Assembly (NCBI RefSeq): GCF_934424005.1
Contig: NZ_CAKRXI010000021.1
Coordinates: forward strand, 1 to 56,649
DNA length: 56,649 nucleotides
From: an uncultured Blautia sp.
GTDB taxonomy: Bacteria; Bacillota; Clostridia; Lachnospirales; Lachnospiraceae
Reading direction: 5' to 3'
Each line of letters opens with the position of its first letter. Within the stretch, counting starts at the first letter, position 1. Below the pieces are notes generated by a model. The model was not told the DNA's origin and did not search any database. It saw only the letters and a program-made list of their open reading frames with translations. The translations under genes and the position numbers were made by a program. Of the stretch, positions 21,224-46,556 are shown piece by piece.

Positions 21224-21297
21224 TAGCGAGAGGGGGATTCGAACCCTCGACACCACGGGTATGAACCGTGTGCTCTAGCCAACTGAGCTATCTCGCC
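21224..21297 (-). tRNA. tRNA-Met (CAU), copy 2
   Basis: Full cloverleaf of 74 nt with CAU anticodon in a UUCAUAC loop, anticodon stem CACGG/CCGUG, T-loop UUCGAAU. The 3' CCA is not encoded. G1-U72 pairing and lack of the GGG/CCC anticodon-stem pairs argue against initiator tRNA; elongator Met is likely, though tRNA-Ile2 (lysidine-modified CAU) is possible. Positions 50 and 64 form an A-C mismatch in the T stem. Identical to the neighbouring copy. Confidence 0.93.
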
Positions 21298-21321
21298 ATA
21301 TACAATATAAATGATACAAAA

Positions 21322-21395
21322 TAGCGAGAGGGGGATTCGAACCCTCGACACCACGGGTATGAACCGTGTGCTCTAGCCAACTGAGCTATCTCGCC
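21322..21395 (-). tRNA. tRNA-Met (CAU), copy 1
   Basis: Base-for-base identical to the adjacent copy over all 74 nt, separated by a 24-nt AT-rich spacer. It carries the same T-stem A-C mismatch. The pair most likely arose by tandem duplication. Cotranscribed with the tRNA-Val upstream. Confidence 0.93.
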
Positions 21396-21403
21396 ATATT
21401 GAA

Positions 21404-21476
21404 TGGGACCTATAGGGCTCGAACCTATGACCCTCTGCTTGTAAGGCAGATGCTCTCCCAGCTGAGCTAAGATCCC
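21404..21476 (-). tRNA. tRNA-Val (UAC)
   Basis: Cloverleaf of 73 nt, acceptor GGGAUCU/AGGUCCC, anticodon UAC in loop CUUACAA, T arm AUAGG-UUCGAGC-CCUAU, discriminator A; no encoded CCA. First gene of the three-tRNA unit. Confidence 0.95.
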
Positions 21477-42692: not shown

Positions 42693-42835
42693 ATCCAGAA
42701 AATGTATGGGGAAGTAATAGATTCTGTTATGAAAAAATAGTTATCTTTAAATTACGGAAGGGATGAAAATCGACACTGAATTTGCTAAGGCTTCGTCGCC
42801 TGGAAGTACTAGGCCATAACCTGCCTGTTAAAAGC

Positions 42836-42888
42836 ATCACACCCAAATGTATAACTCGCGATGCTCAGACAATGCATTTGGGTGTGAT
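42836..42888. repeat. Perfect 14-bp inverted repeat
   Basis: atcacacccaaatg (42836-42849) and catttgggtgtgat (42875-42888) with a 25-nt loop. No U-run on either strand, and no gene directly upstream on the plus strand. Confidence 0.8.
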
Positions 42889-43149
42889 AACACAGTCAGA
42901 ACATGACCAAGGACTTCCGAAAGCTCCTGCAGAAAACGCAAATTCAGCGCCGATTTTCTCCTCTTCCTGCGAATTTAAAATACCTAACATCTATATCTAA
43001 GTCAGAATCTTTCCTGCCTATACATTTTCTATGCACTGCCGTGATTCCCTGCTCGCGCCTGCGGTGCTATTTGTTTTTAGTGTCATACGCACGGTCCAGT
43101 CCTTGCCCTTCCCGGGCGGGATTTATAAAAAATATAATACGTAATAAAC

Positions 43150-43462
43150 GACAGTACATTCGTATATCAGTCCCGCTATTCCAACATAGAAAAAAAAGAC
43201 CATACAATTTGTATATCAGGATTTTCAACTTTCTGCAGGAATGTCGAGTTTTCTTAGATATGTTCTGGCTGCCTTATGAATAAAAATTGCTCTGTCTGAG
43301 CCTTCAGGCAAGTTTGCAATTTTTATGAATGCTTTTCGCAGTCAGGTTATATCTTAGATAACTCCCATTCCGAAGCCTGTTGAAAATCCGATATACAAAT
43401 GTATGGTCCATTAATTAATATTCTCTTTCCTTGCAGGAATTTCGACATACAAATGTACTGTC
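43150..43462. mobile_element. Nested palindrome, possible MITE (313 nt)
   Basis: Outer arms gacagtacattcgtatatc (43150-43168) and gacatacaaatgtactgtc (43444-43462), 17 of 19 paired. A second inner pair starts at 43198-43229 and 43379-43408, 30 of 32 paired. The centre has perfect arms taaaaattgc/gcaattttta (43281-43290, 43316-43325) around gcc-ttca-ggc. The motif (A/G)TACATTTGTAT occurs four times, twice each way. There is also a direct repeat tgcaggaat.tcga (43233 and 43432). No coding frame fits. The terminal arms suggest a miniature inverted-repeat element; no clear target duplication was found. Confidence 0.6.
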
Positions 43463-43469
43463 TAAATTT

Positions 43470-44801
43470 TTAATATTTTTCTTTATTTATAAATTCCATT
43501 AACTTCTCTTTTGTATTATCGGAAGGTTCTTCGAGCACATGTTCCAGCATCTCCTTCAACACCTCTCCGAGTTCCGGTCCTGGCTTATATCCGGCCTGGA
43601 TCAAATCTCTTCCTGTCACGGCAAGTGTCTTTAACGAAACGCATTGTTTCTCCTCTACCACCTTATGATAACACTCTGCCACCCCTTTCAGTCGGGCAGA
43701 TTTTTCCTCTCGGCGATACTCACTCTGGGCAAGCATATCCGCCTCCTGTACTTCGAGATACATCGGAAACAGATCTTCTCCGATCCGGTTCACCGCACGT
43801 CTTACCGAACGCATTTCCGGCATCGGGCGGTCGTCATGATATTTGATCAGTCTGGAGACTTTACTGATCGTATCGTTGTCAAATTTCAGCCGGCGAAGAA
43901 TGCTTTTGGCCATTTTTTCACCTTCCGGTGCATGCATCTTGAAATGATCACGCCCATTTTCATCGGTCTTTCGCATCACTGGCTTCGCAATATCATGAAG
44001 TAGCATCGTCAGCCGAAGGACTTTGTCCGGCCGCACCAGAAGCAGACTGTGAAGAATATGTTCTCCTACTGTATAACAGTGATGCGGAGTATTCTGTTCA
44101 GTCTCCATACATGCATCAAACTCCGGTAGAAATTCTCTGGTAATTCCGGTTTCATAAGCCACTCGGAGATAATCCGGATGTGGTGACACCAGAAGCTTCA
44201 CCAGCTCTGTCTGGATTCGCTCTGCACTGACACATTTCAGATTCGGTGCCAGTGCCTGAATACCAGCCTTCGTTTTTTCTTCAATTGTAAATCCCAACTG
44301 TGCGGAAAAGCGCACTGCACGCAGGATCCGAAGTGCATCTTCATGAAAACGCTCCATCGGATCACCGACACAGCGTACGATTTTATGCTCCATATCTTCC
44401 ATTCCATGAAAAAGATCTACAAGACCTCTTTCCGGATGATATGCCATTGCATTGATCGTAAAATCTCTTCGTTTCAGATCTTCTTCCAGACTCGAAGTAA
44501 ACATGACCTGCTTTGGATGGCGTCCATCTTCGTAATCTCCATCCACACGATACGTCGTTACTTCATAGCCTTCTTTATCCATTAATACGGTCACTGTTCC
44601 ATGCTGCAATCCGGTATCCACCGTGCGCTGGAACAGTTCCTTCACCTGCTGCGGAGAAGCAGATGTGGTGATATCCCAGTCGTTGGGGTTGCGTCCCAGA
44701 ATAGAATCTCTGACGCATCCACCGACAACATAAGCCTCATAACCGTTTTCCTCTAAAATGTGCAGTATTTTTTCCGCATTGGAAGGAATCGTTAATTTCA
44801 T
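43470..44801 (-). CDS. cca: CCA-adding tRNA nucleotidyltransferase
   Basis: Adds CCA to tRNA 3' ends; the tRNAs in this window lack encoded CCA, so it is needed. 443 aa. N-terminal YVVGGCVRDSILGRNPNDWDI (nucleotidyltransferase GG and DxD), RRDFTINAMAYHPERG, RFHEDALRILRAVRFSAQLGF, then an HD domain (LTMLLHDIAKP). Start ATG at 44801, one base after the proS stop, with ggggaag upstream; upstream frames would overlap proS. Cotranscribed with proS. Confidence 0.95.
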   Translation of the reverse strand: MKLTIPSNAEKILHILEENGYEAYVVGGCVRDSILGRNPNDWDITTSASPQQVKELFQRTVDTGLQHGTVTVLMDKEGYEVTTYRVDGDYEDGRHPKQVMFTSSLEEDLKRRDFTINAMAYHPERGLVDLFHGMEDMEHKIVRCVGDPMERFHEDALRILRAVRFSAQLGFTIEEKTKAGIQALAPNLKCVSAERIQTELVKLLVSPHPDYLRVAYETGITREFLPEFDACMETEQNTPHHCYTVGEHILHSLLLVRPDKVLRLTMLLHDIAKPVMRKTDENGRDHFKMHAPEGEKMAKSILRRLKFDNDTISKVSRLIKYHDDRPMPEMRSVRRAVNRIGEDLFPMYLEVQEADMLAQSEYRREEKSARLKGVAECYHKVVEEKQCVSLKTLAVTGRDLIQAGYKPGPELGEVLKEMLEHVLEEPSDNTKEKLMEFINKEKY

Positions 44802-44802
44802 A

Positions 44803-46236
44803 TTAGTATGCTCTTCCCCAGTAAACCATCTTCTTAGCCGGTTTTCCGCAGCATACGCAGACATCGCTCAAGTGTTCCTGTTCAAACGGCATGCATCTGG
44901 ATGTTGCCTGAACATCTTCTTTGATCTTGTCTTCGCATTCACGGTTTCCGCACCACATAGCTTTTACAAAGCCAGGTTTGTTGTTGATGGTATCTTTGAA
45001 TTCTTCATAATTCGTTGCAACATATGTGTGTGCATCACGATGTGCACGTGCGCGCTCCAGCATATCTTTCTGCATGGTATCCAGAACTTCCTGTACTTTG
45101 GCAGCAAGCTCTTCGAAAGAAACCACATATTTTTCTCTTGTATCACGACGACAGATAACAGCCTGTCCGTTCTCGATATCTTTCGGGCCACATTCGATAC
45201 GAACCGGAATTCCTCTCATTTCCTGCTCAGCAAATTTGAATCCCGGGCTTCTGTCTGTGTCATCAACTTTAACACGGATGCCAGCTGCTTTGAGTGCTGC
45301 AAACAGTTCATCTGCCTTTTCCAGAACACCCTCTTTACGCTGCTGAATCGGAATGATAACAGCCTGTGTCGGAGCAATTCTCGGAGGCAGAACAAGTCCG
45401 CTGTTATCACCATGAACCATGATGATCGCACCGATCATACGTGTTGTCATACCCCAGGATGTCTGATGCACATATTTCAGTGTGTTATCTTTGTCTGTGT
45501 ACTGGATGCCGAATGCTTTTGCAAATCCGTCACCAAAGTTATGGCTGGTACCGGACTGAAGTGCTTTTCCATCGTGCATCAGAGACTCAATTGTGTAAGT
45601 TGCTACTGCACCTGCAAATTTTTCTTTGTCTGTTTTCTGACCTTTGATTACCGGAATTGCCAGAACTTCTTCGCAGAAATCAGCATACAAATTCAGCATC
45701 TGGATCGTTCTTTCTTCTGCTTCTTCTGCTGTTGCATGAGCAGTATGTCCCTCCTGCCACAGGAATTCTCTGGAACGAAGGAACGGACGGGTTGTCTTTT
45801 CCCAACGTACTACAGAACACCACTGATTATAGACCTTCGGCAGATCTCTATGGGACTGGATGTCTTTCTGATAAAAATCGCAGAACAGAGTCTCAGAAGT
45901 CGGACGAACGCAGAGACGCTCCTGCAGTTCATTCAGTCCACCATGTGTTACCCACGCTACTTCCGGTGCAAATCCTTCTACGTGATCTTTTTCTTTCTGC
46001 AGAAGAGATTCCGGAATAAACATCGGCATGTACACATTCTGTACACCTGTTTCTTTGAATCTGCGGTCCAGTTCATGCTGGATATTTTCCCAGATCGCAT
46101 AACCTGCCGGTTTGATTGCCATGCATCCTTTTACACTTGTGTAGCCGCACAGTTCCGCTTTTTTGACAACGTCTGTATACCACTGTGCAAAATCGTCTTC
46201 CATGGAAGTGATCGCTTCAACTAATTTCTTTGCCAT
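44803..46236 (-). CDS. proS: Prolyl-tRNA synthetase, short (ProS3/eukaryote-archaeon-like) type
   Basis: Class II synthetase of 477 aa that charges tRNA-Pro. [52 protein letters not shown] (motif 2 region), [14 protein letters not shown] and motif 3 GCxxR-like region are visible. It lacks the ~180-residue editing insertion of the bacterial type and ends [10 protein letters not shown] with the terminal Tyr of the archaeal-like form. Expression is under a T-box (46312-46556), which senses uncharged tRNA-Pro. Good gggag-like aaaaggag ribosome-binding site. Confidence 0.96.
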
Positions 46237-46311: not shown

Positions 46312-46556
46312 ATCAAAAAAAGCCCTTCAGATCCCGGTAAAGGGACCGAAGGACTTCGGCGGTACCACCCTAATTAACAATCCCATATGGAATCGTTCTC
46401 TCTAGATCCTTTAACGCAGGAAACACGCCATGCTTCAATCACATGGAGCTCAGAGGCCGGTTCCATGATTCACGCACAGAATCCTCACACCATATGGATT
46501 CCTCTCTGAGATTGCTCCTCATGTACTATTCTCTTCATCGCTCATAAACTTATTAA
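46312..46556 (-). promoter_or_regulatory. T-box riboswitch of proS
   Basis: The leader holds the T-box sequence TGGTACCGCC (46367..46358), preceded by stem I (GAGCGATGAAGAGAATAGTA, GGTGTGAGG distal loop, paired ctcagag/ctctgag) and followed by the terminator at 46314-46356. A CCG triplet followed by a purine at 46460..46458 (GGAACCGGCC) is the best specifier candidate, matching proline. Uncharged tRNA-Pro would pair and stabilise the antiterminator. Confidence 0.93.
46314..46356 (-). terminator. T-box terminator hairpin
   Basis: agtccttcggtccc/gggatctgaagggct pairing with a 6-nt loop, followed by seven T on the minus strand; it competes with the antiterminator formed by the T-box sequence. 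Confidence 0.85.

Follow-up and report, generated by a model that had tools for sequence, protein, structure and literature searches.

A nested palindrome beside cca in Blautia: a probable MITE-like, terminator-nested hairpin element, partly explained

What is a long nested palindrome doing at the end of the cca gene of a gut bacterium? In the window, by which we mean the whole 56,649-nt stretch of DNA analysed here, positions 43150-43462 of the + strand form two nested palindromes, and a preliminary description made from the sequence alone had offered two readings of them, a non-autonomous transposon and a long hairpin RNA affecting cca. These readings are not exclusive: in this study, we report that the palindrome, here termed E1, belongs to a family of hairpins that is dispersed and also structurally constrained.

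Structure and setting of the palindrome

The nested arrangement beside cca was confirmed by arm pairing and by folding. The pairing counts given earlier for the outer arms, and in the predicted fold those for the inner arms, were borne out (Table 1). The centre stem, formerly counted as 10 of 10, is fully paired, with a length of 11 pairs here, and E1 does adjoin cca, with 7 nt rather than the reported 8 between it and the stop codon (TAA, 43470-43472). A shared TACATTTGTAT-type motif noted at four places is present with small variations in all four arms, and the tgcaggaat direct repeat was found as TGCAGGAAT at 43234 and 43432. As a separate observation, a TACATTTGTA-type motif in the arms is itself palindromic (about 43157-43168, 43203-43216, 43391-43404 and 43445-43458); it resembles the TACANNTGTA operators of the BlaI/MecI/CopY repressors, possibly by chance.

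The predicted folding energy of the whole 313 nt was -121.1 kcal/mol, far below the mean of -57.8 for shuffled sequences (z -12.7, with 0 of 100 shuffles as low), so the poor folding that had been named as an argument against a structured element was not observed. Three features had escaped the preliminary description, namely a run of eight T on the - strand, a second copy of the element (E2), and a hairpin formed by 43198-43408 on its own within the outer 19-nt arms, which is continuous over 211 nt, with folding energies of -97.2 kcal/mol (+ strand, z -15) and -82.4 kcal/mol (- strand, z -10). A scan of the window in 30-nt steps placed its strongest 210-nt hairpin within E1 and identified E2, at 42751, as the second strongest. 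The gene next to E2 has its 5' end towards the hairpin, and E2 is not obviously a terminator. Among the ORFs of at least 80 aa, the sole one to overlap E1 is an ORF of 126 aa (42903-43283, + strand). Elsewhere in the window, a T-box leader (46338-46547, - strand) was seen upstream of an ORF of 477 aa (44803-46236, - strand), and three consecutive tRNA genes at 21224-21476 (- strand).

Table 1. Positions of E1, E2 and their parts in the window, and of variant copies in other genomes (R1, covariance model of the family)
Feature	Coordinates	Strand	Remarks
Outer arm of E2, 3' side on - strand	42756..42785	-	
Core of second copy E2	42778..42941	-	R1, 145 bits; divergent to E1
Outer arm of E2, 5' side on - strand	42938..42967	-	
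Spacer between E1 and E2 cores	42942..43223	.	282 nt; contains the facing arms
Outer left arm of E1	43150..43168	+	17/19 complementary (89%) to 43444-43462
T8 run	43190..43197	-	After the inner hairpin in cca direction; read from sequence
Inner left arm of E1 (32 nt)	43198..43229	+	30/32 paired with 43379-43408 in predicted fold; presumed second arm of terminator, cca direction
Conserved core of E1	43224..43388	+	R1, 153.1 bits
Basal motif CTGCAGG, 5' side of E1 core	43233..43243	+	
Segment with 5' CTTAG of symmetrical internal loop, E1	43249..43262	+	
Centre stem of E1	43280-43290 / 43316-43326		11/11 pairs
Conserved apex of E1	43292..43317	+	CTGTCTGAGC-(mini-hairpin)-AAGTTTGC
Segment with 3' CTTAG of symmetrical internal loop, E1	43351..43362	+	
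Basal motif CGAAGCC, 3' side of E1 core	43370..43377	+	
Inner right arm of E1 (30 nt)	43379..43408	+	Predicted fold; presumed first arm of terminator, cca direction
Outer right arm of E1	43444..43462	+	7 nt from cca stop codon
cca ORF	43470..44864	-	464 aa; 3' end abutted by E1; gene name as in preliminary description
Variant subfamily, genome G001	L070/L168 1446-1589; L078/L157 1489-2096		
Variant subfamily, genome G002	L140		

A family of structured hairpins

BLAST searches with E1 against ten genomes reached via their cca loci gave dispersed matches, with good ones in genomes G001 and G002, all of them to the middle part of E1; the search of close relatives suggested earlier thus showed that E1 is not a single copy without homologues. 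The family consists of a conserved hairpin core of about 163 nt inside a variable outer stem. At the base of the core, CTGCAGG...CGAAGCC is followed by a symmetrical CTTAG/CTTAG internal loop and then a stem; towards the top, a T-rich bulge interrupts the 3' side, and an upper stem of some 16 bp carries the apex TGTCTGAGC-(mini-hairpin)-GCGAGTTTG.

The covariance model R1 was built from 13 copies, 12 found by the apical pattern and E1 added by hand, and three variant copies (L070 and two in L078) were left out of it. The scores of E1 (153) and E2 (145) are those of sequences that were themselves among the 13 model builders. The variant subfamily has the same apex and a different lower core, and scores about 26-37 bits with R1. 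Two-sided changes were found at 45 of 55 pairs among the 13 copies, the stems varying while pairing was kept, and at 52 of 55 among 93 distinct copies, so that covariation is very strong. In the 93 copies, aligned by fitting to the structure and with orthologous copies counted in, 91.6% of cells were paired; the figure dropped to 58% on shuffling and to 35-48% when slid. Across genera the bulges, internal loops and apex stay the same, which argues that the core is selected.

The distribution of R1 matches was examined in three samples; copy counts are given as lower bounds because only a limited number of candidates was scored per genome. In a search of 14 genomes, with at most 150 candidates of each scored, at least 24 copies were found in Blautia MSJ-19, at least 41 in Marseille-P3087, at least 19 in MSJ-9, at least 19 in B. 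luti, at least 21 in B. massiliensis and at least 2 in B. schinkii. Two Blautia MAGs had at least 6 weaker copies each, and the scored candidates of the remaining six genomes, one of which is a Blautia MAG, included none. Under stricter filters, matches were present in at least 17 of 120 sampled genomes of the family Lachnospiraceae (at most 24 candidates per genome) and in at least 5 of 291 sampled genomes of the class (at most 10), G001 being among them in both cases.

The family is apparently undescribed so far. Rfam 15 gave no counterpart at gathering score over E1 and E2 and none at E 0.1 in seven further loci; a match of MIR5048 over E1 and E2, at 31.9 bits against a gathering score of 160, was taken as a long-hairpin artefact. 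No account of these hairpins was found in the literature searched, which took in main texts and part of the subscription papers. Carriage by phages was considered and rejected: four viral stretches fit the apical pattern, but R1 gave two poor matches there, a partial one at a contig end (25 bits) and one of 27 nt (19 bits), the latter taken for chance.

The closest relatives of the cca protein are from Blautia (92 and 90% identity), which places the window most likely in a Blautia genome. R1 gave no match at any of 53 further cca loci, of which 10 carry the label Blautia. The distance of only 7 nt between E1 and the cca stop codon might suggest a conserved cis-regulatory RNA of cca; because E1 is absent from all 53 loci, it is not a conserved cca regulator, and the other copies adjoin other genes, with no recurrent neighbour except at orthologous loci. 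Such a conserved role, for which occurrence at cca in all relatives had been proposed as the sign, is refuted here and is almost certainly wrong, while a lineage-restricted function is possible. In the closest relative (L001), cca is followed by a plain palindrome, GACCGTACATTTGTATGGTC-TTTCTTT, which looks orthologous to the outer right arm of E1 and is an apparent plain terminator, and in L002 by a different plain hairpin and T5. A comparison of an E2 arm with the L001 flank had raised the idea that the arms might be copies of adjoining host DNA.

Position at gene ends and traces of movement

For counts of position, arms and T-runs, 86 of the 95 R1 matches were used; the other nine were partial, weak or on the opposite strand of another match. 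Genes were defined as ORFs of at least 100 aa, and each orthologous or array copy entered the counts on its own. On the 3' side of the hairpin, a gene lying no more than 150 nt away showed its 3' end to it in 50 of 60 copies, compared with 11 of 22 on the 5' side (Fisher p 0.004), and the ratio of 3' to 5' ends on the 3' side was 36:8 in Blautia, 5:1 in genome G061 and 9:1 in the others. Neighbouring copies are mostly divergent, with at least 20 (-,+) pairs less than 700 nt apart, E2/E1 included. At convergent genes there is one hairpin per gene, an account that does not explain E2. A single transposon bounded by two divergent hairpins was also considered and was dropped, because hairpin-bearing convergent genes explain many of the pairs and the copies in G061 are mostly single.

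The remaining close neighbours, (+,-) or on the same strand, lie in two arrays, L146 1365-3982 (G002) and L163 1380-3065 (G001). Both adjoin parA- and parB-like genes and consist of tandem hairpins in register with parS-like TGTTTCACGTGAAACA sites (five perfect and two near sites in L146; three perfect and one near in L163). In L146 the distance from the start of a perfect site to the (+) core that follows is exactly 41 bp in four cases, and three cores of L163 begin 114 bp after a site. Every perfect site of G001 (3) and G002 (5) falls within the arrays; in G005, G007 and G010, none of the R1 matches listed lies within 10 kb of a perfect site.

In many Blautia copies the order in the direction of the gene is stop codon, left arm, core, right arm and T-run, examples being L148 (AAAACTCCGTCC...GGACGGAGTTTTTT), L136, L151, L161 and both copies in L165. 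At gene 3' ends, 27 of 36 Blautia copies had a T-run on the gene strand, compared with 11 of 29 in other contexts (p 0.005), the corresponding counts for the sense direction being 17 of 36 and 11 of 29. In genomes outside Blautia few copies have a T-run (2 of 14 at gene 3' ends). E1 matches this anatomy, its inner hairpin being followed by T8 in the cca direction. In Blautia, judged from these sequence features, the outer stem and T-run thus often resemble an intrinsic terminator for the gene, and the core then occupies the terminator loop.

Several orthologous gene ends in other species have ordinary short terminators of different sequence, and for this reason none of these ends is a clean empty site. 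Some copies are reversed (L215, L166), and the gene at L136 has in G001 a copy in the opposite orientation. Loci L134 (G002) and L214 (G001) share the same terminator arms, and the interior of the core is absent from the latter, between GGCTTC and TGCAG; L214 may be the empty state of the locus, or it may have lost the interior by deletion between short direct repeats. The idea that GGCTTCTGCAG serves as an empty platform, or target, was rejected. This sequence occurs at 30 places in six genomes, and 11 of the 12 loci examined had no hairpin of this family, ten of them lying in open frames of at least 188 codons and one in a frame of 73; the sole family hairpin, at L235, is in the same place as L214. 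L214 was therefore read as a reduced copy.

Traces of movement were found in G061 (6.9 Mb), where most copies are about 290 bp long, with long outer stems, GTTACNGTTCA-type ends and 8-bp target duplications. Identity of 7-8 of 8 was found in 6 of 11 copies and in 0 of 110 swapped controls, in a scripted count in which the ends of L178 and L179 were misplaced and that of L114 was one base off (L114 reaches 7-8 of 8 after a one-base shift). One of the six, with 7 of 8, is a 48-bp version without the core. Hairpins with these ends have therefore transposed, at least in this genome. A test of 73 of the 86 copies (56 Blautia, 10 other, 7 G061) gave target duplications of at least 7 nt in 4 of 56 Blautia copies, not above the control of 4.1%. 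Terminal inverted repeats are shared within G061 (GTTACNGTTCA type) and within G097 (GCAAGTTCCCC), differ between genomes and mostly differ among Blautia copies. G001 and G002 share about nine loci, seven of which were matched through similar genes nearby (in one case just one gene) and two through gene ends. The family is multicopy, dispersed and without coding capacity, traits that it shares with MITEs.

As for a mobilising enzyme, the copies have no recurrent neighbour gene beyond orthologous loci, and no autonomous partner with the same ends was recognised in G061 among the places listed, which comprised exact matches, judged by position, and part of the 424 one-mismatch places. The transposase family searched was Y1. 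A system of the REP/REPIN kind, mobilised by a RAYT (Y1) transposase and leaving no target duplication, would suit copies that are palindromic, extragenic and often in inverted pairs, the lack of target duplications in Blautia, and the presence of PF01797 (Y1/RAYT) in 14 of 22 genomes with the element. That domain is also present in 8 of 18 genomes without the element, however, and had 0 matches at E 1e-5 in G002, the copy-richest genome (at least 41), and the copies of G061 carry 8-bp duplications; we consider such a system very unlikely.

Interpretation and known systems

Mispairs read on the sense strand favoured G-T over A-C in the upper and middle core (59:14 and 83:20), were balanced in the lower core (61:58) and leaned the opposite way in the outer arms (98 G-T to 140 A-C, counted in 73 of the 86 copies), favouring the gene strand. 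The upper-core bias would fit a core whose opposite strand is the one read, either as RNA or in single-stranded DNA, and the outer-arm reversal would fit outer stems that work in the mRNA of the gene, as terminators do; because the copies are related, the bias is suggestive only. It could also mean that the core has a function as a noncoding RNA, transcribed from the sense strand in antisense to the adjacent gene and perhaps bound by protein, its dispersal being secondary and its position in terminators incidental. The loop and apex motifs, kept while the stems change, agree with this explanation, as do the upper and middle core; the balanced lower core, the opposite lean of the outer arms and the patchy distribution do not, and a strand-specific DNA fold would yield an equal bias. 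On this evidence a noncoding RNA appears unlikely.

Covariation may also arise by mutation. The outer stems of the G061 copies have diverged faster than the core and differ from copy to copy, yet remain complementary, and at L178 (330-680, G061) the core is flipped and the asymmetric basal motifs have been turned into a perfect complement. We read both as template-switch correction between arms, and therefore covariation of the outer stems alone is no proof of RNA function. Were the whole family neutral, this quasi-palindrome correction would keep the arms complementary, and covariation would reflect mutation rather than selection; identical bulges, internal loops and apices across genera and the favoured orientation at gene ends speak against it, and we hold this explanation to be improbable.

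Our preferred reading, held with moderate confidence, takes E1 for one copy of a MITE-like hairpin element that is dispersed and non-autonomous, its core lying in the loop of the apparent intrinsic terminator of the gene that E1 abuts, here cca. The transposon proposed earlier gains from multicopy dispersal, patchy distribution, absence at all 53 other cca loci and the G061 duplications, and loses from Blautia duplications that do not exceed the control and from the failure to find a partner enzyme; the Blautia copies, too, probably arrived by transposition. Of the proposed hairpin RNA affecting cca, one part stands, in that the hairpin probably ends cca transcription, but this effect would not be specific to cca. 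Because the core is itself a closed hairpin, the terminator arms on both sides could still meet, so termination would survive the insertion, and gene ends would be a harmless place to settle. A trans-acting factor may recognise the conserved apex on one strand, whether in RNA or in single-stranded DNA. It is possible, although we regard it as doubtful, that these hairpins form a new class of selfish element that lives in host terminator loops without breaking them, offers its one-strand apex as a handle to a mobilising or binding factor, and has multiplied in register with parS beside parAB in two Blautia species.

Common gut bacteria thus carry up to at least 41 copies per genome of a strongly covarying structure of about 163 nt that has seemingly remained undescribed. 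If the terminator reading is true, the family would show how a mobile element can settle harmlessly at gene ends, and would offer natural terminators, their loops very large and structured, on which to probe how far loop size and structure restrict termination. The arm correction at L178 is a warning that palindrome-correcting mutation can mimic conserved RNA structure.

Several known systems resemble this family in part. REP, BIME and REPIN sequences, associated with RAYT, are palindromic, extragenic and often in inverted pairs, as are the hairpins described here; the core of the latter is about 163 nt, however, and the copy-richest genome has no Y1 transposase match. Some repeats serve as terminators, inverted DNA-uptake signals for example, and likewise combine dispersal with intrinsic termination, whereas the repeat described here is a long structured insert in the loop. 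Group IIC introns are mobile structured elements tied to terminators and placed after the stem-loop; the present elements give no Rfam match, are far too short and lie inside the stem-loop. The mobile/repeat sequence candidates (MRSC, PMC11109978) are also multicopy structured motifs that may act as DNA; Blautia and Lachnospir- are absent from the main text of that paper, and overlap with an unnamed candidate is possible. Bacterial MITEs and foldback elements, such as MITEAba12 (PMC6382973), are similarly short, gene-free and multicopy, with inverted ends, and the 8-bp duplications of G061 add to the likeness. In contrast to these, the hairpins reported here have a core that is conserved over many genomes in structure and not in stem sequence, ends that vary by genome, no duplications above control in Blautia, and an apparent location in terminators.
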